Below are positions 32,946-57,950 of a DNA stretch of 64,000 nt, in pieces; the first letter of the stretch is position 1; each line of letters starts with the position of its first letter. Location of the stretch: assembly GCA_023512835.1 (NCBI GenBank), contig CM042085.1:35480324-35544323 (forward strand), written 5' to 3'. The position numbers were made by a program, and so were the translations under genes. Below the pieces are notes generated by a model that worked only from the letters and a program-made list of their open reading frames with translations, searched no databases and was not told where the DNA came from. The stretch is from Taxillus chinensis. Lineage: Eukaryota; Streptophyta; Magnoliopsida; Santalales; Loranthaceae.

Positions 32946-33240
32946 TGCATTCCAGAGATGCTCCTGAAAGACAATAGTTTACACTTTTGGTGCCCAAACT
33001 TGTTTCGGGCGGTTAGAGAGAGCAGATAGTATTGTCAACATTTACGGATTTGATTTTGCTAGGACTTTTAGCTCTCCAAGTTGACTTTAGCTTGTTAGTT
33101 TCAGCTACCTCTTTTACTTGGGTTTTCTTGGGAGAGATACTCCTTTGAGGTTTGGATTTTGTTTTTCTTGAAGAACCCTTTTTGTTTAACTGATCTTTAT
33201 TGATATGAAATTGATTACAAAGCCAGTTATCAGATAAACT

Positions 33241-35958
33241 TCAACATTCATAGTGATAATGACCTATTTCCCTACAGATGGAACAGACATTATAATGTGA
33301 AGTACAAACAGGGGATACAGGTCTCTTAGATTTTATAGATTTTCTATTCTGTTCCCTGTGGCCTAATCCATTATGTTTGGGTGACGCGCTCTTGGCCCTA
33401 GATGCATCGGCCTTTGCCTTGTCTTTCTTTTTGGGTGTTACGGTTTTGGCTTTAACTGCAGCGGCCTTCCCTTCATCTTTAGTTACGGGTGCTACCGTCT
33501 GGAAGTGCGATGCTGACCTCGACTCCACGATCATAAACTATGGTGCCACCTGAAATGAAACCATCCAACGGTTTAGATGTACTAACAGGATATAAGTTGG
33601 TTAGTTTAGGAGTGAAATCCGGAGGACACTCAGTAGCTTGAGCTATGGATGTTGATGACTCGGAACCTAAGCCAGGTTTGACTCGAATGTCGTCAGGATC
33701 AGACCTAAAGGTAGAGGCTATTTCCCCGGATTTTAGCCACTTACGATTTATCTCCTTTTCCTGCTCCAGTTCATTTTCGAGTCTTTTTACTATAACTTTT
33801 AGGCCTGAGAGATTGGTATTTAACAGATGATTTTCAGCTCTTAGATCGTGATACCAAGCTTCTTTTCCTCTCAAGTCAGTGATGTCCTTTTCGAGTCTAT
33901 TAATGGTAAATTCAAGACGTTTATTTTGACTTTCCATATCTTTGTACATTTGTGTAATTATTAGTCTCTCATTCTTTTCATGATCACATGCAGTAGTAAG
34001 AGATTCTAATTTACTCAGGAGCTCAGAGATAGAAGGTACCTCAAGACTTGCCATGAGGTAGACGTTCGGTTTAGTGGTTGGCTCATCATCCGAGGATTCC
34101 TCCTCTTCTTCTCGAGCCACTCATGTATTTTGTCACGAGCGCCTTCTTCTTGTTCTTGTCGTTGTCCGAGGTGGAGCGCCGAGGAGTTACCCCGTCACTT
34201 TTCTCGGCTACTTTTGATTTGGACCTGCATTCCTTGGCCCAGGGACCGGTTTTCCCACGATTGAAGCATTCCTGGGAACCGGACTCGGCCGCTCCTTCCT
34301 TTGGAAAGATGATGATGAGCGTCTTCTGAACCTTTTTCTCGCTTTCCGTAGGAATCGCTCAAAGGATTTGACAAGAAGGGCTATCTCCTCCTCCTCGTCG
34401 AATCGAATTCTCGGACACGTCCGTATCATCATTCCTCGGTATGTTTAGACATTCTTGTAGCTTTGAGAGCTACCCCCTTTTCTTTCCGACCTATTTTCTC
34501 ATCCCCGTCGTAGTACTTAAACCCGACTTCGTGAGTCCAGGCTCTCCATATAGTTCTTCAAGGGGAACATACCGCGTTCTTGTCCGATTGCATCTAGAGT
34601 TGTTTAGAGTAGTAGCGATCCGGCAAGGAGCGAAAGAACTTGTCATTGATCCGGGATTGAGAATAGTGCTCATTGACGGTCTTCGGCTCAAGAATGAGCT
34701 TGCCGAATCTCCGATAGATGCTTTCGAGTGATTCGCCCGGTTTATGATTAAAACTCTCAAAGTTTTGTCCGAGAGTACGATCACATTCTCGCATCAAGGA
34801 CCGACTCCCCTCATAGAGGATTGTCGCTTGTCCCAAACGCTTTTGCTGTCGTGCAGCCCTGGACGTCCGTGAAAGCCTCGGAATCCAAAGATGATGTAAC
34901 ATAAGCCAGAGCCTTTTCACTAGCGCACTGCCAGGCTCTTTCATTGTTGGTAAGTTCAGCTTGACTCCGATCGCTCCTTCCTTCTGGATGATGAGGAGCC
35001 TCTTCTGAATCCTTTTCTACTTTTCTGAAGGAATCGTTCAAAGGATCCGACAAGAAGAGCTATTTCCTCTTCGCGTCCGAGTCGAATTCTCTGACTCATC
35101 CGTATCATCCTCTTGATGATTACTGGAGCATTCCGTAGCTTTGAGGGCTACCCCTTTTTCTTTCCGAGCTATTTTCTCATCACGGCCAGTGTATCTGAAT
35201 CTGACCTCATGAGTCCGAAGCTCTCCGTATATTTCTTCAAGGGCAGTAAACGGCCAGTTTTTGTTAGCTTGCATCTGGAGTTGCTTGGAGTAGTAGCGAT
35301 CCGGCAGGAATCAAAAGAACTTGTCATTGATTTGAGATTGAGTGTAGTGTTCATTGACAGTTTTTAGCTCTAGAATGAGCTTGCCGAAGCTCCGATAGAT
35401 GCTCTCAAGGGATTCGCCAGGTTTGTGATTGAAACTTTCAAAGTTCTGTCTGAGAGGACATATCACGTTTTGCATCTGGGACTGACTCCCCTCATAGAGG
35501 ATTGTAAGTTTATCCTAGACAGCTTTTGCTGTCGTGCATCCTTGGATGTCCGTGAAAGCCTCGGAATCCAAAGACGATGTAACGTAAGCCAGAGCCTTTT
35601 CGCTAGCGCACTGCCAGGCTCTTTCATCATTGGTAAGTTCAGCATCCGTCTTTGGCCTTCTAACTCCATGTTCTCCGATAGTCATCGGAATTGGAATCTC
35701 CTGATGAAGACAGGGCCACATGAGATGATCATGGCATACCATAAACATCTTCATGCGAGCTTTCCACTGGGAGAAAAGCTCAGGTGTGAATTTGGGCGGT
35801 TTCGTCAGAGTAAAGCCAGAACTCCGTGGTTGAGAAGCGGCGGCAGCAGCAGGTTGAGGTGGGTCGACATTTTCACCGCCGCTTCGATTCGGGATGGGCT
35901 CCTGTGGACCTCCTGGAGTTAAGCCGAGTGTTGAATAGCATACGGTTTCTTCGGCCAT
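33241..35958 (-). pseudogene. gag: Element A gag with a 0.68-kb internal duplication
   Basis: ATG at 35956-35958. N-terminal copia gag text follows (SGFTLTKPPKFTPELFSQWK, ARMKMFMVCHDHLMWPC). The segment starting DAELTNDERAWQCASEKALA occurs twice, offset by about 683 bases (+ strand landmarks TAAGTTCAGC at 35634 and 34951). The joint is at about 34961, where EGRSDRSQ runs into AELTNNERAW. Then come a coiled coil (33980-33780: MESQNKRLEFTINRLEKDI), a long linker and a second knuckle CSICREIGHYHYEC near 33250-33300. Elements B and C have the segment once. There are several frameshifts. Confidence 0.8.
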
Positions 35959-36001
35959 TTCGAGATTGAAAGAGTGGGATCTCTACTTAGAACAAATAGA
36001 A

Positions 36002-36015
36002 CTTGCTCGATACCA
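36002..36015 (-). promoter_or_regulatory. Primer binding site of element A
   Basis: Element-sense TGGTATCGAGCAAG two bases after the LTR end; a variant of the initiator tRNA-Met site TGGTATCAGAGC. Confidence 0.85.
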
Positions 36016-36017
36016 CT

Positions 36018-36452
36018 TGATGGTCCCTTGGAGCCTAGAGGGGGGGGGGGGGGGGGGGGGGGGGGGTGAATAGGCTCTTATCGAAACTCTTTTCTTTCTC
36101 TTAAGACACAAACACTTATCCAGTTAAGTGATAGAATCACCACGGAAGATAACCAGGATAGTGAAAGTATTTTGTTTTATTATCACAAGATAAATATAAC
36201 AAAATAGAAGCAAGACTCTCTTACACTCGTTTACAAATGAACTCACACACTAGCCAAATTCTATCTCCAAAAATGAAAACGCTTGTGCATACACAGGATT
36301 AGTCTTTTCTTGACAAATGCACATACGCTCTCACGAGTATATTTCTGAATTAATAACATATCTTCTGCAACGATCAAATAAACACAAGAGATCTTAGATC
36401 AAATTACATAAGGCTTTATCAGCATTATCCAAATTCTGGGTTTGATCCAACA
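36018..36452 (-). mobile_element. 5' LTR of element A
   Basis: 435 bp, TGTTGGATCAAACCC to GGGACCATCA in element sense. It contains a 27-base G run at 36040-36066, against 11 in the 3' LTR and 6 in the mirrored copy at 55276, so the length is unreliable. Confidence 0.92.
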
Positions 36453-36457
36453 GCATG
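36453..36457. repeat. Target site duplication GCATG, right copy
   Basis: Pairs with 23746-23750. Confidence 0.92.
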
Positions 36458-36498
36458 TTCTGAAAGTAAGTATACTTTTGGGTAATTTAAATATGAGA

Positions 36499-37987
36499 CT
36501 ATGCAAAGAAGTCAAGCATACCTAATCGGAAGAGTAGTTCAGAGAATCTTGCATCAGGTAGGGGCTTTGTAAATATGTCTGCCAGTTGATCTTCAGTAGC
36601 AACATGTTCCAGTGAGATGTGACTTTTGAGAACATGGTCGCGTATGAAGTGATACCTGACCTCAATATGCTTCGTCTTAGGGTGCATGACAGGATTGTTG
36701 CTGATAGCAATTGCGCTAGTGTTGTCGCAGTAGAGTGGAATAGATGACATGTTGAAACCGTAGTCGGTAAGTTGACTTTGCATCCGAGTAAGGCTGTGCA
36801 CAAGAACTCCTAAAGACTATATATTCCGCCTCGGCGAGTAGAGGTTGATACGGAATTCGCTTCATCGAACCATGAAATTAATCTATTTCCAAGAAACCGA
36901 CACGTACCACTTGTGCTTTTCCTGTCGATGCGACACCCAGCAAGTCGGCATCGAGTATCCTGGATAAGGTGAAGTTGGACTCCTTTGGGTACCGTAGTCC
37001 CAAATTCATCGTTCCCTTGAGATACCTTAATATCCGTTTAACATGAAGCATATGTGACTCCTTGGGATTCGCTTTGATATCGTGCACAAATGCAAGCTGC
37101 AAACATAATGTCCGGGTGACTTGTCAGAAGATACGCAGAATGATCCTATCATTCCTCTGTAGTCGGTCCACATTTATCGATATTCCATCCACATCAGGAT
37201 CTAACTTGGCACCGACCGGCATGGGAGTTTTGACGGGAGATGAACCTTCCATACCAAACTTCTTAATAAGATCGCGAGTGTACTTAGCTTGATTAATGAA
37301 GATTCCTTCCTTCAATTGTTTAACTTATATTCCAAGGAAGTAGGACGGTTCTCCCATCATGCTCATCTCAAACTTGCTTGTCATCAACTTTGCAAACTCT
37401 TCGCAAAGCTTCGGATTTGTTGATCCCAAAATGATATCATCCACGTATATCCGTACGATTAGAGTGTGTCCTTTCTCTTTTCGTAGAAATAAGGTGGTGT
37501 CTATCTTCCCTTTTTGGACGTTGTGAGCAAGTAGGAATTCCGACGGGGTGTCGTACCAGGCTCTTGGAGCTTGCTTCAAACCATATAAAGCTTTCCGAAG
37601 CTTGTAGACTAGATGTCCCGCCTTAGGTTCAATGAAACCGGGAGGTTATTCAACGTACACCTCCTCTTGAAGATCTCCATTCATGAATGCGCTCTTGACG
37701 TCCATTTGATAAACTATGAAGTTTTCATATGAAGCATACGCCAGAAACATTCGGATTGCCTCAAGTCTTGCTACTGGAGCAAAGGTCTCATCATAGTCCA
37801 TTCCTTCTTCTTGACGATATCCTTTGGCTACCAGTGCTTTGTTCCGGATTACTATTCCATACGTATCAAGCTTGTTCCGGAACACCCATTTAACTCCAAT
37901 GACTTGTCGAGACTTATGCCTTGGTACTAGAGTCCACACATTATTTCTCTTAACTTGATTCACTCTTCTTGCATGGCTTCTATCCAA
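36499..37987 (-). pseudogene. pol: Element B RT and RNase H, frameshifted
   Basis: RT pieces at 37987-37646 ([40 protein letters not shown]), 37579-37325 ([19 protein letters not shown]) and 37315-37124 ([20 protein letters not shown]). RNase H is at 37102-36499, ending TEDQLADIFTKPLPDARFSE. About five frame changes and one stop (37640 area). The protein text is close to element A, so B is a sister copy. Some breaks may be sequencing errors, because base quality seems to fall toward the right from here. Confidence 0.8.
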
Positions 37988-39536
37988 TTCGAATCCTAAA
38001 GAGCTTCATCTACCACTTTTGGTTCTATTTAAGCTAGAAAACATGAGTAAAGACACATGTTGAAAGTGGTCGCTCTTGTTCTTACACGCCAGTAGGGGAT
38101 CACCAATCACTTGATCCGAGGGATGGTTTCGGGTCCATCTCGTAATTCCGTGCATGTGATGGTTGATCTTGAATAATTTGAAGCTCCGCGCATTAGGTGG
38201 TTCAGGTATATCTGCGGTGAGCTTCTCTCGGACCAGATGTTTCTATATTAGAAGGTACGGTAGAACTAGGTGGTTCTTCAACACCGTTTCTTTTAGTGTT
38301 AACGGTCCGGGATGGGCTTGAAGGTGCTCAGAATTTTGGGTATCCGAAGGAGTATGTCCGGAGCTTAATGGTAGTCCCGAGTCCGAATCATCCGTAGCAT
38401 CATCCATATAATTTCTTTGTGCCTCGCTAATGTCACGTGGTTGGTTAGAATGTGTAACAGAACATTCATAAACTTCGAATAGTCGATGTTGCTATCCTGG
38501 ACTGTACATTAGAACTTGAAGAAGCAACTTTTGACCAATCAAGATTAGTTTCATCAAAGGTCACATGGATAGATTCTTCAACTTTAAAAAGTTTTCTATT
38601 GAAGACCCGATAAGCCTTGTATGTAATGAGTACTCGACAAAAATCTCATCATCGATTTTTGGTTCAAATTTATTCCGGTTTCTTTGCCATTTATCAATAT
38701 ATAGCAAGTACACCTAAAAGCTCCGAAATATGAAATTGAAGGCTTTCGTCCTCTCCACATCTCATAGGGTGTTTTCATGGTAGATTTATTTATTAGAGTT
38801 CTGTTCCAACATAGCAGGCAGTGGACACGCCCAGCCCATGGGACCGAGAGGAAGCGTTGCCCCTGCTAACATAGATCCGCCACCTCAACTAAAGTACGAT
38901 TCTTGCGCTCGCCTACCCCATTTTGTTATGGAGTTCGGGCGCAGAGAAGTCATGCCGAATGCCCTGTTCGGAACAATATGATCTCATATCTGAAAAATCA
39001 AATTCTGTACCATGATCACTCCTAATGCACTTTATGCTCAGTCCTTGTGAGTTGCTTATCCAGTTGAAAAGATCTACATGATGCTCAAAAGTTTGATCCT
39101 TTGATTTCAGGAACATCACCCATGTGTATCTGGTGAAATCATCGATAACCACAAGGGTATACCTCGCACCAGCCAGCGAATGAACAGAAATAGGACCACA
39201 GAGGTCCATATGAAGAAGTTGTAGAGGAGCAGTTATTGAATTAACTAATTTGCTCTTAAAGCTATGTTTGGTCTGTTTGCCAAGTTGGCATTCTCGACGA
39301 GAGTGTCTCCTGGAGTATTTGAGTTTAGGTAGACCTGTGACAAGATCAAGTGACGCTAACTTAGACAATGTCTTAAAGTTTAAATGTGCGCATCGCTTGT
39401 GCCATAACCAACTATCTTCATCTGAAGCTTTAGCGAGGAAGCATACAGGGTCAGAAGAATTATTTCTTAAAACCACTGAGTATATGTCCCCATCTCTTGA
39501 TCCGGATAACTTAACATCTCCTGGATAAGTTTTTCC
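37988..39536 (-). pseudogene. pol: Element B integrase, broken
   Basis: Core at 39476-38913: WLWHKRCAHLNFKTLSKLAS and RRECQLGKQTKHSFK (zinc domain), LLHMDLCGPISVHSLAGARY, VVIDDFTRYTWVMFLKSKDQ, CIRSDHGTEFDFSDMRSYC. This frame is open for 187 codons. The C-terminal half (38912-37988) has the same text as element A in scattered frames, with many short indels and no long ORF. Confidence 0.78.
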
Positions 39537-39929
39537 TTATCGGACAGTGTTGGACATAAAGGAAACAAGAAATCCTTTGTCACATAAATTACTAACACTT
39601 AGAAAATTATGCTTCAAACCTTCGACTAGTGCAACTCTAGTGATTGATACATAGCCGTTGGTTAAAGTGCCATACCCGACAGTCCTTTCCTTTGTTGTTG
39701 TCACCATATGAAACGATGGACCTCGTTTTTCATTAACTTCTACAAGCAGAGTCTGATCACTCGTCATATGTCCGGAGCATCCACTATCGAGGATCCACTT
39801 GCTTTGATTGATCTTTAACTTCAAGTGATCCGGTAGTGCATTCCAAGAGATGCTCCCGAAAGACAACGGTTTACACTTTTGCTGCCCAAACTTGTTTCGG
39901 GCGGTTAGAGAGAACGCCAAGAATGTCAA
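39537..39929 (-). pseudogene. pol: Element B protease and pre-integrase domain
   Basis: WILDSGCSGHMTSDQTLLVE contains the DSG active site; ITRVALVEGLKHNFLSVSNL follows. It aligns with 32526-32945. Confidence 0.82.
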
Positions 39930-39991
39930 CGGTTCCGGATTTGACTTTGCTAGGACTTTTAGCTCTCCAAGTTGACTTTAATTTGTTAGTT

Positions 39992-42150
39992 TCAATGTTC
40001 TATTATTTGGGTTATCTTGGGAGAGATACTCCTTTGAGGTTTAGATTTTATTTTGCTCGAAGAACCCTTTTTATTGAACTGATCTTTATTGGTACGAATA
40101 TGATTGCAAAGCCAGTTATCAGATAAACTCCAACATTCATAGTGATAATGACCTATTTCCTTACAGATGGAACAGACACTATAATGTGGAGTACAAACAG
40201 GGGATACAGGTCTCTTAGATTTTATAAACTTTCTACTTTGTTCCCTGTGGCCTAATCCATTGCGTTTGGGTGATGCGCTCTTGGCCCTAGATACGTTAGC
40301 CTTGGCCTTTCCTTTCTTTTTGGGTGCTACAGTTTTGGCTTTAACTGCAGCAGCCTTCCCTTCATCATTAGTTACGGGTGCTACTGCTTCGGGAAGTGCA
40401 GGAATGTCCTCGACTCCACAGTCATAAACTATGGTGCCACCTGAAATGAAACCATCCAACGGTTTAGATGTACTAACAGGATATAAGTTGGTTAGTTTTG
40501 GAGTGAAATCCGGAGGACACTCAGTAGCTTGAGCATTGGAGGTTGATGATTCGGAGCCTAGGCCAGGTTTGACTCGAATATTATCCCGATCGGTCCTAAA
40601 TGAAGAGGCTATTTCCTCGGATTTAAGCCACTTACGATTTATTTCCTTTTCATGTTCAAGTTCATTCTCGAGTCTTTTTACAATAACTTTTAGGCCTGAG
40701 AGATTAGTATTTAGCAGATGATTTTCAGCCCTTAGATTGTGATACCAAGCTTCTTTCCTCCTGAAGTCAGCTATGTCTTTTTCAAGTCTAGTAATAGTAA
40801 ATTCAAGACGTTTATTCTGACTTTCCATATCTTTGTACATTTGAGTAATTATTATTCTCTCATTCTTTTCATGATCACGTTCAGTAATAAGAGATTCTAT
40901 TTTACTCATGAGCTCGAGATGGAAGGTACCTCGGTATTTGCCATGAGGCGGACGTTCGGCTTAGAGTTGGCTCATCATCCGAGGATTCCTCCTCTTCTTC
41001 GAGCCACCGATGTACTTTGTCACGAACGCCTTCCTCTTGTTCTTGCCTTTGTCGAGGTGGTTCGTCAAGGAGTAACCTTGTCACTTTTCTCTGCCGTCTT
41101 AGATTTGGATCTGCATTCCTTGGCCCATGACCTGGTTTCCCACAATTAAAGCATTCTTGGGAGCTCGACTCCGATCGCTCCTTCCTTCTCGGATGATGAG
41201 GAGCCTCTTCTGAATCCTTTTCTACTTTTCCGAAGGAATCGTTCAAAGGATCCGACAAGAAGAGCTATTTCCTCTTACGCGTCCGAGTCGAATTCTCGAC
41301 TCATCCGTATCATCCTCTTGATGATTCTTGGAGCATTCCGTAGCTTTGAGGGCTACCCCTTTTTCTTTCCGAGCTATTTTCTCATCACGGTCGGTGTATC
41401 CGAATCTGACCTCATGAGTCCGAAGCTCTCCGTATATTTCTTCAAGGGCAGAACGCCGGTTTTGTCGGCTTGCATCCGGAGTTGCTTGGAGTAGTAGCGA
41501 TCCGGCAGGGATCGAAAGAACTTGTCATTGATTTGAGATTGAGTGTAGTGTTCATTGACGCTTTTAGCTCTAGGAATGAGCTTGCCGAATCTCCGATAGA
41601 TGCTCTCAAGGATTCGCCAGGTTTGTGATTGAAACTTTCAAAGTTCAATCCGAGAGGACATATCACGTTTTGCATCCCGGGACCGACTCCCCTCATAGAG
41701 GATTGTAAGTTTATCCTAGACAGCTTTTGGTGTCGTGCAGCCCCGGACGTCCGTGAAAGCCTCGGAATCCAAAGACGATGTAACGTAAGTGTAGCCTTTT
41801 CGCTAGCGCACTTTGCCAGGCTCTTTCATCGTTGGTAAGTTCGGCATCCGTCTTTGGCCTTCTAACTCCATGTTCTCCGATAGTCATCGAAATTGGAATC
41901 TCCGATGAAGACAGGGCCACATGAGATGATCATGGCATACCATAAACATCTTCATGCGAGCTTTCCACTTGGGAGAAAAGTTCGGGTGTGAATTTGGGCG
42001 GTTTTGTCGGAGTAAAACCCAAACTTCGTGGTTGAGGAGTGGCGGCGGCAGGTTGAGGTGGGTCGACGTTTTCACCGCTGCTTCGATTCGGGATGGGCTC
42101 TTGTGCACCTCCGGAGTTAAGGCTAGTGTTGAATAGCATACTGTTCTTCG
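39992..42150 (-). pseudogene. gag: Element B gag, single-copy form
   Basis: The start lies near 42145 in a broken frame (QEPIPNRSSGENVDPPQPAA, then KFTPELFSQ). It contains TDAELTNDERAWQ once and, unlike element A, the knuckle CFNCGKPGHGPRNADPN (about 41140). The 305-codon frame 40909-39992 holds a coiled coil (RIIITQMYKDMESQNKRLEF) and the second knuckle CSICKEIGHYHYEC. Several frameshifts lie between 41250 and 42150. Confidence 0.78.
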
Positions 42151-42200
42151 GCCATTCTTTGAGAGTGAAAGAGTGGGATCTCTACTTAGAACAAATAGAA

Positions 42201-42214
42201 CGTACTCGATACCA
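42201..42214 (-). promoter_or_regulatory. Primer binding site of element B
   Basis: Element-sense TGGTATCGAGTACG two bases inside the LTR end at 42217. Confidence 0.75.
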
Positions 42215-42216
42215 CT

Positions 42217-43933
42217 TGATGGTCCTTTGGAGCCTAGAGGGGGTGAATAGGCTCTTATCGAAACTCTTTCGATTCTCTTATGACACAACACTTATCTAGT
42301 TAAGTGATAGAATCACTACGGAAGATAACCAGATAATGGAAGTATTTTGTTTTATTATCAAAAGATAAATACAACAAAATAGAAGCAAGACTCTTTTACA
42401 CTCGTTTACAAAAGGATTCACACGCTAGCCTATATTATGTCTTTGAACTCTTGTACATACACGGGGTTGATTCAGGCTCGCGCACCCCTCTTTCAAATGT
42501 ACAAGTATGAATATTTATAAAAACATTCCTAAGAGACAACCTTGGAACTTGTAGTTCCGAATGCGTTCAGCACTAACTATTCCTCGGTAATCTCTCTGCC
42601 TTTGACTCTTGTGGTTTGTGGAGATCAAGATCTTGGGTTTGAAGAGTATAAATGCCTTTGTGAGTTGCATGGATCAAACCCAGGAATTTGGATAATGCTG
42701 ATAAAGCCTTATGTAATTTGATCCGAGATCTTTTGTGTTTATTTGATCATTGCAGAAGATATGTTACTAATCCAAGAGATGCACTCGTGTGAGCAAAGCT
42801 AAGGACAGGATACATAATCCTGATCCGGACAAGAGTGAGTGTCGTGAAACACCAGTAAATAACCAAGTAACAAATACATACGGAATAAGGAACATTCCTA
42901 CGGACTAAGAACTTAAAGGATAAGTGCGGAGTAAGGGAAACCAGATGTGGAGTAAGGAATCGGATGTATTACTCGCCGGAGTAAGGAAACCAGATGCGGA
43001 GTAAGGAATCAGGATGTATTACTTGCCGGAGTAAGGGAACCTACATACGGAGTAAGGAAATTACATACGGAGTAAGGAACTTACATGCGGAGTAAGAAAG
43101 CGCTGACACTGGAATAAGTTATCAGACTTTTCAAGACTCGCCCGGAGTAAGGAACTTACATGCGGAGTAAGGAACTTACATACGGAGTAAGGAACTTACA
43201 TACGGAGTAAGGAACTTACATACGGAATAAGGAATTTACATGCGGAGTAAGGAAGCGCTGACACGGACTAAGGATTCCGTACTAAATAGATACGGAGTAA
43301 GCAACCACCGACACGGAGTAAGGTTCCGAGCTTAATTAGCTACGGAGTAAGGATAATACACCGGACCAAGAAGACACTGCTCAACTAAACCGCATTTAAA
43401 GTTATCAGCCCTTGGTGTCCCAATGTAAGACGAATGTATTGAGAACATGAAGAATTTTACACGTGGATCATCCGGATATGTGGACACAATCTTAATTGTA
43501 TCTCGGAACTCACAAAGACACTTATACTCTTCAAATCCAAGATCTTGAGCTCCACAATCCCAGCTAGTCAAGGCAGAGAGATTACCAGGGATAGTTAGTA
43601 CGGACGATTCCGAACTACAAGTTCCAAGGTTGTCTCTTAGGAATGTTTTGTATAAATATTCATACTTATACTTTATGTAAAAAGAGAGGAGCTTTATCAT
43701 CTTTAGAGATAAAACTTGGCTAGGTGTGAGTTCATTTGTAAACGAGTGTAAGAGAGTTTTGCTTCTATTTTGTTATTCATCTTGTGATAATAAAACAAAA
43801 TACTTCCACTATCTGGTTAACTCCGCAGTGATTCTATCACTTAAACTAGATAAGTGTTTGTGTCTTGAGTGAAAGGAAAGAGTTTGAATAAGAGCTATTC
43901 ACCCCCCCCCCTTTAGGCTCCAAGGGACCATCA
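42217..43933. mobile_element. Head-to-head copia LTR pair (B minus, C plus)
   Basis: 42217 to about 42669 is the end portion of a copia LTR on the minus strand (B's 5' LTR). At 42670 it meets TGGATCAAACCC, the start of a long LTR on the plus strand that ends CCAAGGGACCATCA at 43933 and leads into element C. The plus LTR is about 1.26 kb, against 0.42-0.44 kb for element A's, because of an internal minisatellite. The outer 420-450 bp on each side are inverted copies with about 0.84 kb between. It may be a genuine inverted insertion; a second fold-back is possible but less likely because the middle is not palindromic. Confidence 0.65.
42880..43375 (+). repeat. 20-bp minisatellite in the long copia LTR
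   Basis: About 15-20 imperfect units of CGGAGTAAGGAACTTACATA (variants with ATGC, GGATGTATTACT, AGCGCTGACA). It is mirrored in reverse complement at about 48170-48670 in the fold-back arm. Element A's LTRs lack it. Confidence 0.85.
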
Positions 43934-43935
43934 AG

Positions 43936-45737
43936 TGGTATCGAGCACGTTCACTTTGTTCAAGTAGAGATCCCACTCTTTCAATCTCGAAAAGGCCAAG
44001 AAAGCAGGATGCTATTCAACACTCGCCTTAACTCCGGAGGTGCACAGAGCCCGTCTCGAATCGAAGCGGCGGTGAAAATATCGACCCACCTCAACCTGTG
44101 CTTCCTGCCGCCACTTCTCAACCACGCGAGTTCCGGTTTTACTTTTAACGAAACCGCCCAAATTCACACCCGAGCTTTTCTCCCGGTGGAAAGCTCGCAT
44201 GAAGATGTTTATGGTATGCCATGATCATCTTATATGGCCATGTCTTCATCGAGATTCCAATTCCGATGACTATCGAAGAACATGAGGTTGGGAGGCCAAA
44301 GACAGATGCCGAACTTACCAACGATGAAAGAGCCCTGGCAATGCGCTAGTGAAAAGGCTCGGCTTATGTTACATCGTCTTTGGATTCCGAGGCTTTACGT
44401 ACGTCCGGCCGTAATGCATGACAGAAAAGTTTTTGGGACAAGCCGACAATCCTCATGAGGAGTCAGTCCCAGTTGAATGTGATCTCGCACTCTCGTACTA
44501 ACTTTGAGAGTTTTAATCATAAACCGGGCGAATCACTTGAAAGCATCTATCGGAGATTCGGCAAGCTCATTCTTGAACTGAAGACGTCAATGAGCACTAT
44601 TCTCAATCCCGATCAATGACAAGTTCTTTCGCTCCTTCGGATCACTACTACTCCAAACAACTCCGGATACGTCGACAAAAACTGGCGTATGTTCCCCCGC
44701 AAGGACCGTATGAGAGCTGCGGACTCACGAAGTCGGTTTAAGTACTCGCTCGAGATGAGAAAATAGCTCGGAAAAAAAAGGGGGTAGCTCTCGCTTCTAA
44801 GAATGTCTAAACATACTGAGGAATGATGATACGACGTATCCGACAATCCCGATTCCCGACGAGGAGGAGGAGATAGCCCTTCTTGTCAAATCTTTTGAGC
44901 GATTCCTACGGAAAAGCGAAGAAGGGATCAAAAGACGCTCATCATCATCGTTCCAAAGGAAGGAGCGACCGAGTCCGGTTCGAGGAATGTTTCAATCGTG
45001 GGAAAACCGGTCACCGGGGCCAAGGAATGCAGGTCCAAACAAAGTGGCCGAGAAAAGTGACAGGTAGTCCCTCGCCAGCTCCACCTCGGATAACGACAAG
45101 AAGAGCAAGGAAGGCGCTCGTGACAAAATACATGAGTGGCTCGGAAGAAGAGGAGGAATCCTCGGATGATGAGCCGACCCCTTAAACGACGTGCACCAGT
45201 GGCAAATACTAGATACCATCTCTGAGCTCCTGAGTAAATTAGAATCTCTTACTACGCATGTGATCATGAAAAGAATGAGAGACTAATAATTACTCAAATG
45301 TACAAGGATATGGAAAGTCGTAATAAACGTCTTGAATTTACTATTAATGAGCTCGAAAAGGACGTCAGCGACTTGAGAGGAAAAGAAGCTTGGTATCATG
45401 ATCTAAGAGTGAAAATCATTTGTTAAATACCAATCTCACGAGCCTAAAAGTTATAGTAAAAAAGACTCGAAAATGGAAGATGAGGAAAAGGAAATAAATA
45501 GTAAGTGGCTAAAATCCGGGAAATAGCCTCTTTCTTTAGGGTGATCTGACGACATCCGAGTCAAACCCGGCCTCGGTTCGAACCATCAACTTCCATGCTT
45601 CGGGCTTAGGGTCCTCCGATTTCACTCCTAAATAGCCAACTATATCCCGTTAGTACATCCAAACGTTGGATGGTTTCATTTCGGGTGGCACCATAGTTTG
45701 TGATTTGTGGAAGTGGCTATTCTTATGACTAGAACCA
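43936..45737 (+). pseudogene. gag: Element C gag, plus strand, up to the read hinge
   Basis: It starts with primer site TGGTATCGAGCAC (43936). Then come gag N-terminal text in broken frames (44009 on), CFN-GKTGH knuckle remnants (about 44985), the acidic stretch SEEEEESSDDEPTP (45185) and the coiled-coil segment (45290-45530). It ends at the adapter. There is no gag duplication as in A. Indels are frequent, so read error and mutation cannot be told apart. Confidence 0.65.
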
Positions 45738-45780
45738 GCAATACGTAACCCAGCATTGTCGTTCAGTTACATGGCTTGCT
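45738..45780. other. Oxford Nanopore adapter remnant at the palindrome hinge
   Basis: 45738-45749 reads GCAATACGTAAC, the first 12 bases of the Nanopore Y-adapter bottom strand as I know it. After nine bases, 45759-45770 reads TCGTTCAGTTAC, an exact 12-base piece of the top strand, followed by ATGGCTTGCT, a noisy version of its end. The order, end of one strand then start of the next, is that of a template read running into its complement without being split. This is sequencing-library DNA, not plant DNA. Confidence 0.93.
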
Positions 45781-45847
45781 GGATTCAGAGCCTTGATAGC
45801 AGCCTCGACTCTGATCATCGTATGATGCTTTGATGAGCCATCTGCGG

Positions 45848-47520
45848 TTTAGATGTACTAACAGGATATAAGTTGGTTAGTTTAGGAATTATCCGAGACC
45901 TTTCGGGCTATGGAAGTTGATGGTTCGGAGCAGAGACGGGTTTGACTCGGATAATAGTCAGGATCAGTCTAAAGGTAGAAATTTATTTCTAGGATTTTAG
46001 CCCTTTACGATTTATTTCTTTTCCTGTTCAGTTCATTTCCGAGTCTTTCACATAACTTTTGAGCTGATTGGTATTTAGCGAATGATTTAGCTCTTAGATC
46101 ATGATACCAAGCTTCTTTTCCTGCGAAGTCGATGACGTCTTTTAAGTCCATTAATAGTAAATTCAAGGCGTTTATTCGACTTTCCATATCCTTGTACATT
46201 TGAGTAATTGTTAGTCTCTCATTCTTTTCATGATCACATGCGGTAGTAAGAGATTCTAATTTACTCAGGGAGCTGAAGATAGAAGGTACCTCGGTATTTG
46301 CCATGAGGCGGAACGTTCGACTTAGTGGTCGGCTCATCGTAGAGAGGATTCCTCGGTTCTTAGGAGCCACTCATGTATTTTGTCTGAGCGCCTTCCTTTT
46401 TGCTCTTGCTGTTATCTGAGTGGAGCGGCGAGCAGTTACCCTTGTCACTTTTCTCGGCCACTTTTGTTTTGGACTGCGATTCCCTGGCCCGGGTGACCGG
46501 GTTTTCCCACAGTTGAAACATTCCTCGGAGCCTCCGGTCGCTCCTTCCTTTGGAGCGATGATGAACGTCTTGCAGTCCCTTTTACCTTTTCCGTAAAGAT
46601 GGCTGCCCCGACCTGACAAGAAGGGCTATCTCCTCCTCCTCGTCGGAATCGGGGTATGGAGATCACGTCTGTCTCATTCCTCGGTATGTTTAGACATTCT
46701 GCAGCTTTGAGAGCTACCCCCTTTTCTTTCCGAGCTATTTTCTCATCTCGCCCCCAGTGCCCAAACCTGACCCCAGTGAGTCCGCAGCTCTCAGTACAGT
46801 TCTTCAGGGAGCATGCGATTTTGTACGATTGCATCTGGAGTTGTTTGGAGTAGTAGTGATCCGGCAAGGAGCGAAAGAACTTGTCATTGATGCGGGATTG
46901 AGAATAGTGCTCATTGACGATCTTCGTTCAAAGATAGGCTTGCCGAATCTCCGATAGATGCTTTCAAGTGATTCGCCCGGTTTATGATTAAAACTCTCAA
47001 AGTTACGTACAGAAGTCTGGAATCACATTAGCATCTGGGGCCCGACTCCCCTCATAGAGGATTGTCGAGTTTGTCCCAAGCAAGCTTTTCTTGTCATGCG
47101 GCCACGGACGTGCAGCAAAGCCTCGGAATCCAAAGGCTTGATGTAACATAAGCCGAGCCTTTTCACTAGCGCCTTGCCGAGGGCTCTTTCATCGTTGGTA
47201 AGTTCGGCATCTGTCTTTGGCCTCCCTAACTCCATGTTCTTCGATAGTCATCGGGATGGAATCTCCCGATGAAGACATGGCCATATAAGATGATCATGGC
47301 ATACCATAAAACGTCTTCATGCGAGCTTTCCCCTTTGGGGAGAAAAGCTCAGTGTGAATTTGCGACGTTTTCGTTAAGTAAAACCAGGAGACTCCGTGGT
47401 TGAGAAGTGGCGAGCAGCGTAGGTTGAGGTGGGTCGATATTTTCCTCTTGCTTCGATTCGAGAACGGGCTCACGTGCACCTCCGGAGTTCCGGCGAGTGT
47501 TGAATAGCATCTTTGCTTTC
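45848..47520 (-). pseudogene. Mirror copy of element C gag (artefact)
   Basis: Reverse complement of 43990-45700: coiled coil near 46200, TDAELTNDERA at about 47200. Carries no independent information. Confidence 0.85.
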
Positions 47521-47590
47521 TTCGGCCTTTTACGAGATTGAAAGAGTGGGATCTCTACTTAGAACAAAGTAGAACGTGCTCGATGCCACT

Positions 47591-49317
47591 TGATGGTCCC
47601 TTGGAGCCTAAAGGGGGGGGGGTGAATAGGCTCTTATTCAAACTCTTTCCTTTCCCTCAAGACACAAACACTTATCTAGTTTAAGTGATAGAATCAACTA
47701 TAGGAAGTTAACGAGATAGTGGAAGTATTTTGTTTTATTATCCGCAAAGATGAATGCAACAAAATAGAAACCAAAACTCTCTTACACTCTGTTTACAAAA
47801 ATGAACTCACACCCCTAGCCAAGTTTTATCTCTAAAAGTGATAAAGCTCCTCTCTTCTTTACATAAAATATAAGTATGAATATTTATACAAAACATTCCT
47901 AAGAGACAACCCCAGAACTTATGATTTCCGAATAGTTCCGCACTAACTATCCTCGGTAAATCTCTCTGCCTTGAAGCTAGCTGCTTGTGGAGCTCAAGAT
48001 CTTGGATTTGAAGAGTAGTGTCTTTGTGAGTTCCGAGATACAATTAAGATTGTGTCCACATATCCGGATGATCCACGTGTAAAATTCTTCATGTTCTCAA
48101 TCACGTTAGGTCTTACATTGGGACACCAGAGGCTGATAACTTTAAATGCGGTTTGGTTGGAGACCGTGTCTTCTTGGTCCGGTGCTTAATTATCCTTACT
48201 CCGTAGCTAATGAATCGGAACCTTACTCAGTGTCGTGGTTGCTTACTCCGTATCTATTTAGTCTTGGAATCCTTAGTCCACGTGTCAAACTTCACTTACT
48301 CCGCATGTAAAATTCCTTATTCAGTATGTAGGATTCCTTACTCCGTATGTAAGTTCCTTACTCCGTATGTAAGTTCCTTACTCCTTATCTGCAAGTTCCT
48401 TACTCGGAGTGAATCTTGAAAAGTCCGATAACTTATTCCGATGTCAGCGCTTTCCACTCCGCATGTAAGTTCCTTACTCCGTATGTAATTTCCTTACTCC
48501 GTATGTGGGTTCCTTACTCCGGGCGAGTAATACATCAGATTCCTTACTCTTGGGTCCCAGGTTTTCCTCAGAGGCGAGTAATACATCAGAATTCCCTTAC
48601 TCCTATCCGGTTTCCTTACTCCGGACATATCCTTTAAGTTCTTAGTCCGTGGAATTTCTTATTCCGTATGTATTTGTTACTTGGTTATTTACCAAGTGTT
48701 TGTGTTTCCTCCTCTTGTCCGGTTCAGGATTATGTATCTCGTCCTTGGCGCTGCTCACACGAGTGCATCTAACGGATTAGTAACATATCTTAGTGCAATG
48801 ATCAAATAAACACAAAAGATCTCAGATCAAATTACATAAGACTTTATCGGCATTATCCAAATTCTGGAGTTTGATCCATGAACTCACAAAAGCATTTATA
48901 CTCTTCAAACCCAAGATCAGCAGTCTCCACAAACCCTGACGATCAAGGCGGAAAGTGCAGAGATAGTTGAGTGCTGAACGCATTCCCGGAACTACAGAAT
49001 TCCAAGGTTGTCTCTTAGGAATATTTTATAAATATTCATACTTGTACATTTGAAAAAGATGCGACGAGCTTTGAATCAACCCTATGTAAAAGACATAATA
49101 TAGGCTGGCGTGTGAATCCTTTTATGCTTAGTGTAAAAAGAGTCTTGCTTCTATTTTGTTGTATTTATCTTTTGATAATAAAACAAAATACTTCCATTAT
49201 CTGGTTATCTTCCGCGATGATTATCACTTAACTAAGATAAGTGTTGTGTCCTCAGAGAAATCGCGCGGGTTCCGATAAGGCCTATTCACCCCCTCCTAAA
49301 CTCCCAAAGGACCATCA
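47591..49317. mobile_element. Mirror copy of the head-to-head LTR pair (artefact)
   Basis: Starts TGATGGTCCC and ends AGGACCATCA. The minisatellite is reversed at 48170-48670 (TTACTCCGTATGTAAGTTCC). Mirrors 42217-43933. Confidence 0.85.
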
Positions 49318-52300
49318 GGGTGTGCTCAGTGCGTTCTATTTGTTCTAAGTAGAGATCCCTCTCACTCGCGAGAAGAGTTATGTGGCACCTTAACTCGAGG
49401 TATCAGCCCCTCGGGCGAGCGGTGGCGATCGACCCACCTCGGCTCTCAAACTGCCAATCCTCCACCTGCCCGAAGTTCTGGTTTTTCCACTGCCGCCCAA
49501 ATTCGAGCTCTCCCGGTGGGAAATACATAGATGTTTATGGTATGCCATCTCCTTGTCTTCATCGGGAGATTCCAGTTAGCTTCATTATTTATCGAAGGAA
49601 CATGAGGTTAGAGACTTAAACGGATGCCGAACCTAGCCGATGAAAAAAAGAAATAGCGTCTTTTACTTGCTCACAGCCCTCGGTCTTTGGATTCAGACTT
49701 TCCCCCCGTCGAGGGCTGCGCCTTCCTCAAAGGCATCTGGGAATCTTACAGTCCTCTGTGAAAAAAGTGGAAAGAAGCACGAGATTTCAATCACAAACTT
49801 TGCGAATCCCTTGAAGCATCTATCGGAAATTACATTTGCTCGATCTAAACTAAAAACTGTCAATGAACCTTACACTCAATCTCGGAAATCAATGACAAGT
49901 TCTTTACGATCCACACCGGATCGGCCCCACCTCCAAGTCTCAAGCAGCTCTCAGTGCAGGCCGATAAAAAAAGCGCGTTCTACCCTTGAAGAAATATACG
50001 GAGAGCTTCGGACATAGTCAGGTCAAATACACGACCGTGATGAAAATGCTTCGAAAAAAAAGGGGAAGCCATAAAGCTGCGGAGTCTTCCGATAATCCTC
50101 AAGAGAGGATTAATCTGGATGAAGTCGAGAGAATTAGAGCTCGAGGCGCAGAGAGAATGGCTCTTCTTGTCAGATCCCACGAGCGATTCCTTCGGAAGGT
50201 AGAAAAGGATTGAGAAAAAAGGAGCTCCTCATCATCCGAAGGAAAGGGGCGATCGGAGTCGGAGCTCCCAAAAGTGCTTTAAGTGGGAAGCCGGGGTCAC
50301 GACCCAAAATGCAGATCTGGTCTAAGACGACGGAGAAAAGTGACAGGTTTACTCCTTGACGAACCACCTCAGACAACGGCAAGAACAAGAGGAAGGCGTT
50401 CGTGACCCCCCCATGATGACTCACAGAAGAGGAATCAGTGATGAGCCAACTCCTAAGCCCGAGCGTGCTGCCTCATGGCAAAAATGGTGATACTCTCACA
50501 GCTCATAATAAAATAGAATCTCTTATTACTAGACATTGATCATGAAGAGAGTGAGAGAATATGATACTCAAATAGCTACAAGGGTATGGAAAGTCGGGGC
50601 AAGCGTCTTAGTTACTATTACTAAGACTTGAAAAAGACATGGCAAACCCAGGAGAAAAAAGCTGAAATCATCTGCCATCATCTCTCTCAGGCCTAAAAAT
50701 TATTTGTAAAAAAAGACCCCCGTAGGCGCAAGAGACATGAAGAGAATAGAGCGTAAGTAGCCCAAATCCGAGAATGCCTCTTCATTTCGGGCGGGTCAGT
50801 GAAATATTCGAGTCAAACCTGGCCTAGGCTGCGAGATCATCAACCTCCGGCTGCCTCCTGGCCGGGTGTCCTCCGGATTCCACTCAAAACTAACCAACTT
50901 ATATGGTGGTATCCAAGCCGCCCTGGTTCCCTTAGGCCCCCCCCCCCCCCGAGTAGTCGAAAATGCCGCACTTCCCCAGCGGTAATGTGATGAGAGGAGA
51001 GCTGCTGCAGTTAAAGCCAAAACCTTGGCACCCAAAAGAAAAGGAAAGGCCAAGGCTAACGTATCTAGGGCCAGAACGCATCACCCCAGCCTTGATAAGT
51101 TAGGTGACGGGAACAAAGTAGAAAGTTTATAAAATCTAAGGGACTTTTGTATCCCTGTTTGTACTCCACATTATAGTGTCTGTTCCATCTGTGAAGCTAG
51201 GGTCATTATCACTATGAATGTTGGAGTTATCTGATGGCTTTGCAATCATATTAAATTTAATAAGAATCGGTCCCTCAAGGGTTCTTCGAGCAAAATAAAA
51301 TCTAAACCTCAAGGAGTATCTCTCCCAAGATAACCCAAATAATAGAAGCAGCTGAAACTAACAAATTAAAGTCAACAGCAGAGCTAAAAGTCCTAGCAAA
51401 GTCAAATCCGGGACGGTGACATTGCTGCTTGTTCTCCCAACATACGAAACAAGTTTGGGCAGCAAAGAAGTGTAAGTTGTTGTCTTTTCGGGAGCATCTC
51501 TGGAATGCTTACCAGATCACTTGAAGTTAAAGATCAATCAAAGCAAGTGGATCCTCGATAGTGGATGCTCCGGACATATGACCAGTGATCGGACTGCAGC
51601 ATGAGAAGTTAATGAAAAACGAGGTCATTATTTGTTTCATATGGTGACAACAACAAGGAGTATCGGGTATGGCACTTTAACCAACGGCTATGTATCAATC
51701 ACTAGAGTTGCACTATTGAAGGTTTGAAGCATAATTTTCTAAGTGTTAGTAATTTATGTGACAAAGGATTTCTTGTTTCCTTTATGTCCAACCTGTCTAG
51801 ATGAAAAACTTATCCGGAGATGTTAAGTTATCCGGATCAAGAGATGGGGACATATACTCAGTGGTTTTAAGAAATAATTCTTCCGACTTTGTATCTTCCT
51901 CATTAAAACGAGATGAAGATGTAGTTGGTTATGTACAGCGATGCGCCACATTTAAACTTTAAGACATTGTCTAAGTTAGCGTCACTTGATCTTGTCACTG
52001 AGAATTACCTAAGCTCAAATGCTCCGAGACACTCATCGAGAATGCCAACTTGGCAAACAGACTTAGGAAACATAGCTTTAAGAGCAAATTAGTTAATTAA
52101 TCCTTGCTCCTCTACAACTTCTCATATGGACCTCTGTGGTCCTATTTACCATTCATTCTGGCTGGTACAGTCGCGAGGTATACCATGTGGTTATCGATGA
52201 TTTCACCAGTCACACATGGGTGATGTTCCTGAAATCAAAGGATCAAACTTTTGAGCATCATGTAGATCTTTTCAACCTGGATAAGCAACTCACAAGGACT

Positions 52301-54890
52301 GAGCATAAAGTCATTAGGAGTGATCATGAGTGCAGAATTTGATTTTTCAGATATATGAGATCATATTGTTCTGAACAGGGCATTCGGCATGACTTCTCTG
52401 GCCCAGAACTCCTTAACAAAATGGGGTGAGAGCGCAAGAATCGTACTTTAGTTGAAATTTGGCAGATCTATGTTAACGGGGGGCAACGCTATCTCGATCC
52501 CATGAAATTTGTTGTGTCCTTGCCTGCTATGTTCGAAACGAACTCTAATAAATAAATCCACCATGAAAACACCCTGAGATGTGGAGAGGGCGAAAGCCTT
52601 AATTTCATATTTGAGCTTTTGGGTGTACTGGCCATATATTGATAAATGGCAAAGAAACCCAAGATCACGTTGAACGAAAATACGATGATGAGATTTTTGT
52701 CGAATTACTCGTTACATAGCAAGGCTTATCGGGATCTTCAATAGAAAACTTTTTAAAGTTGAAGAATCTATCCATGTGACCTTTGATGAAACTAATCTTG
52801 ATTGGTCAAAAGTTGCTTCTTCAGTTAGAATGTACGAGAGTCCGGGATAGCAACATCGACTATTCGAAGTTTATGAATGTTCTGTTACACATTGGACTTG
52901 ACCCGTGACATTAGCGAGGCACAAAGAAATTATATGGATGATGCTTCTGGATGATTCGGACTCAGGACTACCATTAAGCTCCGGACTATACTCCTTGGAT
53001 ACCCAAAATTCTGGAGCACCTTCAAAGCCAAATAGGACAGGTTAACACTAAAAGAAACGATTGTTGAATACCCTAGTTCTACCGTACCTTCTAATATAGA
53101 AACATGCGGGTCCGGAGAAGCTCGACCGGCAAGATATACCTGAACCACCTAATCCCGCGAGCTTCAAAATTATTCAGATCAACCATCATGCACGGGAGTA
53201 CGAGATGGACCCGAAGCACGTCCCTCGAGATCAAGTGATTGGTGATCCTCACTGGCTAGTGTAAGAACAAGAGCAGCCACTTTCAGCATGTGTCTTTACT
53301 CATGTTTCTAGCTTAAATAGAACCAAAAGTGGTAGATGGCTCTTTACAGGATTCGGGTGGATAGAAGCCATGCAGAAATTTGAATCAAGTTAAGAGAAAT
53401 AATGTGTGGACTCTAGTACCAAGGCATAAGTCTCGACAAGTCATTGGAGTTAAATGGGTGTTCCGGAACAAACGTCGTATGGAATAGTAATCCGGAACAA
53501 AGCCGGGCTGGTAGCCAAAGGATATCGTCAGAAGAAGGAATAGACTATGATGACATTTGCTCCGGTAGCAAGACTTGAAGCCAAATCCGAATGTTTACGG
53601 CGTATGCTTCATACTGAAAACTTCACATAGTTTATCAAATGGTGATGAAGCGCATTCATGAATGGAGATCTTCAAGAGGAGGTGTACGTTGAATAACCTC
53701 CCGGTTTACATTGAACCTAAGGCAGGACATCTGATGCAAGCCCCGCAGCTTTATATGGTTTGAAGCAAGCTCCAAGAGCCTGGTGCGACACCTTTGTCGG
53801 AAATTCCTACTTGCTCACAACGTCCAAAAGGGAAGATAGACACCACCTTATTTCTACGAAAGAGAAAAGGACACACTCCCAATCATTGCAGATATCGTGG
53901 ATGATATCATTTTTGGGATCAACAAATCCAGAAGCTTTGCGAAGAGTTTGCAAAGTTGATGACGAGGCAAAGTTTGAGATGAGCATGATGGGGCTTGTCC
54001 TACTTCCTTGGAATATAAAGTTAAACAATTGAAGGAAGGAATCTTCATTAATCAAGCTAAGTACACTCCGCGATCTTATTAAGAAGTTTGGTATGGAAGG
54101 TTCATCTCCCGTCAAAACTCCCATGCGGTCGGTGCCAAGTTAGATCCTGATGTGGATGGAATATCGGTAAATGTGACTGACTACGAGAGGGAATGATAGG
54201 ATCATTGCTGTATCTTACAGCAAGTCACCCAGACATTATGTTTGCAGCCTTGCATTTGTGCAGATATCGAGGGCGAATCCCAAGGAGTCACATAGCTTCA
54301 TGTTAAACGGATATTAAGGTATCTCGAGAACGATGAATTTGGGACTCTGGTACCCAAGGGAGTCCAACTTCACCTTATCGAGGATACTCTGATGCTGACT
54401 TCGCTGGGTGTCGCATCGTAGGAAAAGCACAAGTGGTAACGTGTCAGTTTCTTGAAATAGATTAATTTCATGGTTCGATAAACGAGTCGAAAAGTATCGA
54501 CCTCTATGCTAGCTGGCGGAATATATAGGCTATTTGGGAGTTGCTGTGCACAGCTACTCTGGATGCAAAGTCAACTTACTGACTTCGGTTTCAACATGTC
54601 ATCTATTCCACTCTACTGCGACAACACTAGCGCAATTGCTATCAACAGCAATCTGTCATGCACCCTAAGGCGAAGCATATTGAGGTCAGGTATCACTTCA
54701 TACGCGACCATGTTCTCAAAAGTCACGTCTCACTTCCAGGAACATGTTGCTACCCGCCTGAACTGGCAGACATATTTACAAAGCCCCTACCTGATGCAAG
54801 ATTCTGGCGAACTACTCTTTCCGATTAGGGTATGCTTGACTTCTTGCATAGTCTCGTATTTAAATTACCCACGTATACTTGCACCAGAAC
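49318..54890 (+). pseudogene. Mirror copy of element B gag-pol (artefact)
   Basis: Contains gag (49380-50480), DSGCSGHM-type protease text (about 51545), integrase (51900-52420: FLKSKDQTFEHHVDLFN), RT (53390-54200) and RNase H (54500-54840), all riddled with indels. The same segments are cleaner at 36499-42150. Confidence 0.85.
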
Positions 54891-54894
54891 ATCT

Positions 54895-55302
54895 TGTTGG
54901 ATCAAACCCGAGAATTTGGATAATGCTGATAAAGCCCCATGTAATTTGATCTAAGATCTCTTGTGTTTATTTGATCGTTGCAGAAGATATGTTATTAATT
55001 CAGAAATATACTCGTGAGAGCGTATTTGCATTTGTCCCGAAAAGACTAATCCCGTATGCACAAGCGTTTTCGTTTTTGGAGATAGAATTTGGCTAGTGTG
55101 TGAGTTCATTTGTAAACAGAGTGTAGAGAGTCTTGCTATTTTGTTATATTTATCTTGTGATAATAAAAACAAAATCTTTCACTATCTGGTTATCTTCATG
55201 AATGATTCTATCAACTTACTTGGATAAATGTTTGTGTCTTAAGAGAAAGAAAAGTTTCGATGAGGCTTTATTCACCCCCCTCTAGGCTCCAAGGGGCCAT
55301 CA
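54895..55302 (+). mobile_element. Mirror copy of element A 5' LTR (artefact)
   Basis: TGTTGGATCAAACCC to GGGGCCATCA, 408 bp. It mirrors 36018-36452, with a C6 where the partner has G27. Confidence 0.85.
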
Positions 55303-57950
55303 AGTGTTATCAGAGCAAGTTCTATTTGTTCTAAAAGTAGAGATCCCACTCTTTCAATCTCAGAAATGGCCGAAGAAAGCGGTATCTTTATTCAACACTC
55401 GACTTAACTCCGGAGAGGTCCACGAGGCCATCCCGAATCGAAGCCCGCCGTGAAAATGTCGGCCACCTCAACTGCTGCGCCGCCGCCTCAACCACGGAGT
55501 TCTGGCTACTCTGTCGAAACCGCCCAAATTCACACTGAGCTTTCTCCCAGTGGAAGCTTCCATGAAGATGTTTATGGTATGCCATGATCATCTCATGTGG
55601 CCTTGTCTTCATCGGGAGATTCCAATTCCGATGACTATCGGAAGTATGGAGTTAGAAGGCCAAAGAGCGGATCTTTGAACTTACCAATGATGAAAGAGCA
55701 TGAGTGCGCTGGCGAAAGGCTACGGCTTCACGTTGCATCGTCTTTGGATTCCGAGGCTTTCACGGACATCCAAGGATCTTACTGACGGCCAAAGGCTGTC
55801 TAGGACCAGCCTGATCACATGAAATTCAGTCCCAGGATGCAAAACGTGATATGTCCTCTCGAACGGAACTTTGAAAGTTTCAATCACAAACCTGGCTGAA
55901 TCCCCTTGAGAGCATCTATCGGAGCTTCGGCAAGCTCGTGCAGAGCTAAAAGCTGTCAATGAACACTACACTCAATCTCAAATCAATGACAAGTTCTTTT
56001 TTTGATTCCTGCCGGATCGCTCTTACTCCAAGCAACTCAGATGCGAAACTAGCTCATACTGCCCTTGAAAAATACGGAAAACGGACTCATGAGGTCAGAT
56101 CGGATACAACGCGTGATGAAAATAGCTCGGAAAGAAAAGGGAGTAGCCCCCTCAAAGCTACGGAATGCTCCAGTAATCATCAAGAGGATGATACGGATGA
56201 GTCGAGAATTCTGACTCAGGCGCGAAAGAGGAAATAGCTCTTCTTGTCAGATCCTTTGAACGATTCCTTCGAAGAAGTGAAAGGATTCGGAAAGGCTCCT
56301 CATCATCCGAAGGAAGGAGGCGATCGGAGTCAAGGCTGAACTTACCAACAATGAAAGAGCCTGAGCGGTCTTGTGAGTGAAAAGGCTACAGCCATGTTAC
56401 ATCATCTTTGGATTCCGAGGCTTTCACGGACGTCCGGGCTGCAGGCAGTAAGGCACATTTGGGACAAAGCGACAATCCTACATGAAGTCGGTCCTTGATG
56501 CGAATGTGATACGTACTCTCGAGACAAAACTTTGAGAGTTTTAATCATAAACGAGGCGAATCACTCGAAAGCATCACATCGGAGAGTCGACGAGCTCATT
56601 CTTGAGGCCGAGACCGTCAATGAGCACTATTCTCGATCCCGGATCAATGACAAGTTCTTTCGCTCCTTTGCCGGATCGCTACTACTCTAAACAACTCTAG
56701 ATGCAATCAGACAAGAACTGTACATTATGTTCCCTTGAAGCCCCATATGGAGAGACGCGGACTCACGAAGTCCGGGTTTAAGTACTCACGACGGGGATGA
56801 GAAAATGGAGTCGGAGAAGAAAGAGGGGTAGCTCTCAAAGGTACGAGAATGTCTAAAATATCTTGAGGAATGATGATACGGACGTGTCCGGGGTCAGATT
56901 CTGGCGAGGGAGGAGGGGAATGGCCTTCTTGTCAAATCCTTTGAGGCGATTCCTACGAGCGAGGGAAAGGGTTCGAAGAGCGCTCATCATCATCTTTCCA
57001 AAGGAAGGAAGCCGGCCGGAGTCCAGTTCCCAGAATGCTTCTTGTGGGAAAAACCGGTCAACTGGAGCCAAAGAGTGCAGGTCCAAATCAAAAGTAGCCG
57101 AGAAAAGTGACGGGGTAACTCCTCGGCGCTCCACCTGGAGACAACGACAAGAACAAGAAGAGGCCTCGTGACAAAATACATGAGTGGCTCAGAAGAGGAG
57201 GAGATCCTCGGATGATGAGCCAACCACTAAACAGGGCGTCACCTCATGGCAAATCTTGAGGTACCTTCTATCTACAGAGCTCTGAGTAAGTGGGAATACT
57301 CTTACTACTTTGCATGTGATCGTAGAAAGAATGAGAGAGACTAATAATTACACAAATGTACAAAGATATGGAAAGTCAAAATAAACGTCTTGAATTTACC
57401 ATTAATAGACTCGAAAAAGGACATCACTGACTTGAGAGGAAAAAGAAACAAGTATCACGATCTAAGAGCTGAAAATCATCTGTTAAATACCAATCTCTCA
57501 GGCCTAAAAGTTATAGTAAAAAGACTCGAAAATGAGCTGGAGCAGGAAAAGGAGATAAATCGTAAGTGGCTAAAATCCGGGAAATAGCCTCTACCTTTAG
57601 GTCTGATCTCGACATTCGAGTCAAACCGGCTTAGGTTCCGGAGTCATCAACATCCATAGGTCAAGCTCTTGAGTGTCCTCAGGATTTCCTCCTAAACTAA
57701 CCAACTTATATCCTGTTAGTACATCTAAACCTTGGATGGTTTCATTTCGGGGTAGCACCATAGTTTATATTTGTGGAGTCGAGGGCACATTCTTTACTTC
57801 CCCGAAACGGTAGCACCCGTAACTAAAGATGAAGGGAAGGCTGCTTTCTTGATTAAAGCCAAATTGTAACACCCAAAAAGAAAGACAAGGCAAAGGCTGA
57901 TGCATCTAGGGACCAAGGCGCGTCCACCCAAACATAATGGATTAGGCCAC
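55303..57950 (+). pseudogene. Mirror copy of element A gag, cut by the gap (artefact)
   Basis: Includes the duplicated gag segment (joint about 56335) and the coiled coil (57360-57590, ENHLLNTNLSGLKVIVKRLE). Ends in the linker before the second knuckle. Confidence 0.85.

Follow-up and report, generated by a model that had tools for sequence, protein, structure and literature searches.

Foldbacks have been described in long-read data generally (Heinz et al., PMC12870357), and inverted-repeat reads have been reported at frequencies of 0.18-7.33% in ligation libraries (PMC13141652). The latter report suspects that, where the signal is smoothed at the joint, two consecutive reads were taken as one. 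Fast pore reloading is known to yield in-silico chimeric reads (PMC5600009), and in the assembly of a plant plastome, palindromic reads gave rise to palindromic contigs (PMC7092973). A literature search returned no paper on a palindromic contig that carries a nanopore adapter within an assembly.

When examining a 64-kb stretch of Taxillus chinensis DNA (C2:35480324-35544323, hereinafter the window), we observed a structure that is related to each of these cases and identical to none of them. As in the foldback reads, its first half recurs as the reverse complement in the second, and the hinge is confined to tens of bases; unlike the foldback reads, as far as the two reports (PMC12870357, PMC13141652) describe them, the Taxillus case is fossilised in an assembly and has kept adapter sequence at the hinge. 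With the chimeras that result from fast reloading (PMC5600009), it appears to share the successive reading of two molecules that were called as one, although here, judging from the sequence alone, these molecules are most likely the two strands of a single duplex. As in the plastome case, unsplit palindromic reads would have produced a palindromic contig, but here this occurred in a transposon nest of a 520.9-Mb assembly, whereas the plastome authors left the source open, with long-range PCR being conceivable (PMC7092973).

The palindrome occupies 24.6 kb (33358-57950) and consists of a collinear chain of inverted 15-mers that runs inwards from 33358 and 57950 to the hinge. The left arm (33358-45737, forward strand), apparently the first strand to be read, was delineated from this chain and from the alignment of the arms; the right arm (45781-57950, reverse strand; alignments began at 45778 or 45845) is its reverse complement at raw-read quality. 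When the arms were aligned over 12.4 and 12.2 kb, respectively, 10,882 of the 12,831 columns matched (84.8%), and the differences comprised 840 substitutions together with 706 indel events, most of which (637) involved only 1-2 nt. Thus, the two parts are reverse complements of each other with a breakpoint within 200 bp, which is how a foldback is delimited by Heinz et al. (PMC12870357). There are 346 palindromic 13-mers at the hinge; among 200 random centres between 2000 and 43500, eight had more than 20, with a maximum of 199, reflecting natural inverted repeats. A scaffold gap of 500 N (57951-58450) directly adjoins the right arm, which is therefore the very end of the contig. The sequence past the gap (58451-64000) showed no match to window positions 1-57950 in a local comparison, and a comparison with one paralog gave a single weak match (66% over 439 nt). 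The left arm contains a run of 27 G (36040-36066, forward strand) where the mirrored place in the right arm has 6 G so that, if the arms represent one locus, at least one of the readings is wrong; the 27-G run is probably a base-calling or polishing error. A 14-C run is also present in the right arm (50937-50950), within the patch where the arms agree least.

The original prediction was that two exact 12-mers from the Nanopore ligation adapter are embedded where the sequence folds back on itself, in the order expected of the end of one read and the start of the next. PMC7490894 prints the start adapter as AATGTACTTCGTTCAGTTACGTATTGCT and the end adapter as GCAATACGTAACTGAACGAAGT, and both words proved to be parts of these sequences. 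In particular, the forward strand of the hinge reads as follows: the left arm ending in GAACC, then A, then GCAATACGTAAC (45738-45749), an exact copy of the first 12 nt of the end (bottom) adapter, nine garbled or truncated bases at the junction of the end and start adapters (45750-45758), TCGTTCAGTTAC (45759-45770), an exact internal 12-mer of the start (top) adapter, and the rest of the start adapter, noisy and extending to the T overhang, namely, ATGGCTTGC followed by T (45771-45780), after which the right arm begins with GGATTC. The A that precedes GCAATACGTAAC and the T that follows ATGGCTTGC are, presumably, those expected from A-tailing and the T overhang, and both arms stop at the same position of the underlying element, immediately ahead of an A, insofar as the noisy alignment defines it. 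Each word occurs once in the window, and the inverted 15-mers lead inwards to the very place where the words lie. The sequence of an end adapter followed by a start adapter between the arms, which is the mark of an in-silico chimera, is accordingly present in the form of two exact 12-mers and a fit with 9 edits over 42 nt, the adapters being incomplete. 

The full-length adapter is absent at the hinge. Loose alignment of the full joined adapter gave scores of 20 on the forward strand and 22 on the reverse strand at this site, values that random sequences of 64 kb, taken whole, ordinarily reach (100 nulls; mean 20, maximum 24); scores of at least 20 are rare per stretch, being reached in 24 of 20,000 random stretches of 100 bases. 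The weight of the evidence lies in the two long exact words and in their place rather than in a full-length adapter. Hence the expectation that the adapters would align to the hinge held for the exact words and for the fits over wider spans described below, and failed with respect to a significant full-length match.

We scanned the whole assembly (520,938,286 bases in 264 contigs) on both strands and found GCAATACGTAAC 9 times and TCGTTCAGTTAC 11 times, against 93 and 66 occurrences of the respective reversed-pattern controls. The two words come together at one site only, the hinge. Reduced to their inner 8 and 10 bases and allowed to lie up to 30 bases apart, the words again occur together once, at the hinge; this count is weak by itself because the reversed control likewise occurs once. 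All the other sites (8 of GCAATACGTAAC and 10 of TCGTTCAGTTAC) were inspected, those designated L029-L031 over only some 500 bases per side, and none lies inside the hinge element or at a palindrome. Among these, site L005 has a 70% relative of the hinge element about 520 bases off, site L001 shows six chance palindromic 13-mers in simple sequence, and site L034 shows one. A search of the assembly for near-adapter sequence (20-mers with up to three mismatches) yielded six sites, compared to 32 for the reversed pattern, that is, no enrichment, and none at a palindrome; the hinge itself is missing from this list because no 20 of its bases match without gaps at three mismatches.

The hinge-proximal part of the left arm (43400-45700) lies in a multicopy element that has at least 40 matches besides itself, 40 of the 6,104 candidates having been scored. 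We used 19 of these 40 as references, one of which (L010) is part of the second-copy match discussed below. All 19 copies continue past the hinge point with GTAGCACCCGTAACTAAAG- or GTAGCACCCGTAACTAAAGATGAAG-like sequence, and the GTAGCACCCGTAACTAAAGATGAAG-like continuation coincidentally has GTAAC and more in common with the adapter and resembles both words, so that poorly read genomic DNA might account for the words. This resemblance is an argument for a foldback without any adapter, that is, one that arose at the contig end by library preparation or copying and whose hinge is noisy, adapter-like genomic sequence; Heinz et al. (PMC12870357) lend this scenario further credit in that they favour library preparation, rather than missed splitting, as the way in which foldbacks usually arise. 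When the 42-nt hinge was fitted as a fold, with truncation free at the centre, the adapter required 9 edits, compared to 16-19 for the genomic continuations of the 19 copies. Moreover, we simulated 16,000 folds of noisy genomic sequence (four error rates between 10 and 40%, with 4,000 folds each), and none favoured the adapter as strongly as the hinge does; both 12-mers appeared in none of the 16,000 and any one of them in three. Because the adapter word itself defines the left edge of the fitted hinge, to the adapter's advantage, the fit was redone on three wider spans with fixed ends. Over 45690-45830, 45700-45820 and 45720-45800, the best adapter fits took 45, 40 and 24 edits and the best genomic fits 51, 46 and 30, respectively, with the adapter ahead for 19 of the 19 copies in each span; the margin of 7 edits in 42 nt becomes about 6 edits in 81-141 nt with the wider spans. 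A noisy genomic continuation is rejected as the source of the words by the 42-nt fit, the simulations and the wider-span fits alike, and since none of the other 8 and 10 sites of the words falls inside the element or at a palindrome, an origin without adapter seems to us quite improbable. 

Poor quality marks the right arm and the final portion of the left arm, as becomes apparent when the locus is compared to a second copy. A block of about 30.7 kb (15046-45711) is present twice on one scaffold, about 97 kb apart and in the same orientation, the second copy being at G000:C2:35592344-35623013. The two are collinear where sampled (15046-16725, 22756-24264 and 30065-45711), 15.8 kb being aligned at 96.1% and the rest sampled. 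Specifically, window positions 30065-45711 were aligned in full with G000:C2:35607302-35623013 at 96.1% identity, the slice at 22756-24264 matched at 96.7%, and the matches reach back to 15046, the preceding 6 kb being free of N; slices L056 and L057, further out, showed no match. The second copy may be the other haplotype (an unpurged overlap) or a segmental duplicate. Where the window folds back, the second copy (G000:C2:35607302-35623013 and onward) passes straight through, with no palindromic 13-mers at that point; a straight path without the fold is what sets a foldback artefact apart.

When binned by 1 kb, the contig and the second copy are 94.9-98.8% identical in all 14 bins between 30065 and 44064; identity falls to 90.7% and then to 88.9% in the remainder, which ends at 45711. 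For the right arm, 10 of 13 bins show 86-91% identity to the second copy, the two bins at about 49-51 kb show 76% and 73%, and the final, short bin shows 83%. A three-way alignment across 33.4-40.3 kb (7,109 columns) contains 796 columns private to the right arm and 136 private to the left arm, and the left-arm private columns climb to 128 of 1,829 over the final 1.7 kb; in the substitution columns of the 33.4-40.3 kb region, the left and right arms agree against the second copy in 69, and the right arm and the second copy agree against the left arm in 84. The element copies give the same picture. Over about 2.2 kb, 110 columns are private to the left arm and 213 to the right arm, compared to 5-29 for each of the 19 other copies; among these 19, the median pairwise difference amounts to 4.0% in substitutions, with 1.1 indel events per 100, whereas the left arm differs from these copies by 7.6% and 3.1 and the right arm by 12.3% and 3.0. 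Such a gradient would be the look of a contig end where coverage drops to one folding-back read. 

These observations bear also on the notion that the palindrome is a genuine inverted duplication, about 12 kb long, poorly sequenced and with a hinge that is adapter-like by chance. The surroundings are a transposon nest in which natural inverted repeats do occur (8 of the 200 centres with more than 20 palindromic 13-mers, although the maximum is 199 vs 346 at the hinge), which speaks for the notion. However, a duplication of this sort would have to carry an adapter at its hinge, to stop at a gap, to have its poorest sequence precisely in the right arm and in the stretch of the left arm closest to the hinge, and to coexist with a straight copy elsewhere in the assembly, and we deem it exceedingly improbable. 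We are almost certain that the 24.6-kb mirror-image stretch is a sequencing artefact, of a kind already known, and the right arm most likely corresponds to no real genomic locus.

The explanation that we favour, and consider very probable, is that the two strands of a single ligated duplex passed through Nanopore sequencing one after the other, that their reads were not split, and that they were left as an overhang at the contig end. Under this scenario, a Y-adapter would have been ligated to the end of a double-stranded genomic fragment; the first strand would have been read to its end, giving the left arm, the A-tail and the start of the bottom adapter; the second strand would then have passed through the same pore, giving part of the top adapter and the right arm; and the base caller would have left the two strand reads unsplit. 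The unsplit read would have been the last of the contig, so its second half would have been retained as a false overhang of 12.2 kb up to the scaffold gap. Conceivably, the strands of the end adapter were instead joined covalently in the library and acted as a hairpin, so that template and complement formed one strand. Such a molecule would yield the same order of bases as an unsplit read, and the general argument of Heinz et al. (PMC12870357) for a library origin would apply to it as well. The shortened junction, 42 nt instead of the 49 expected, suits a break in the signal equally well. To our knowledge, a covalently joined hairpin is no expected product of a Y-adapter, and we regard this variant as unlikely. 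The adapter at the hinge thus appears to favour the route through two consecutive reads, although the same letters would result from an adapter joined in the manner of a hairpin. A palindrome caused by a missed PacBio hairpin was rejected, the best loose matches to that adapter by raw score, one on each strand, being at 8231 and 60993, away from the hinge.

As far as sequence can tell, the prediction of a Nanopore adapter embedded at the hinge is supported, given the 9 edits against at least 16 for the genomic rival, the straight copy and the raw-quality right arm at the gap. About 12 kb (45738-57950) of the 520.9-Mb assembly are most likely false and should be left unannotated; accordingly, the genes, the repeats and the inverted duplication in this stretch are most likely not real. 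The pair of 12-mers exemplifies how a broken adapter can persist in an assembly; to find further adapter scars, it would be sensible to inspect contig ends that adjoin N gaps. Because this foldback retains adapter, it also makes a small addition to the open question of library origin versus missed splitting.

The transposon nest includes two direct copies of 5.4 kb (29556-34960 and 36453-41845; 88.8% identity). Domains of RVT_2 and a retroviral SH3-like fold are encoded at 30129-31871, and GAG-pre-integrase, rve and Pol_BBD at 38913-39977; this set of domains is that of copia-type elements. Elsewhere in the window, tandem repeats with units of 36-37 bp, alike by eye and one of them on the other strand, are located at 4232, 11977, 16702 and 20903, and a 419-bp unit is present in two head-to-tail copies that are 98% alike (25800-26632).
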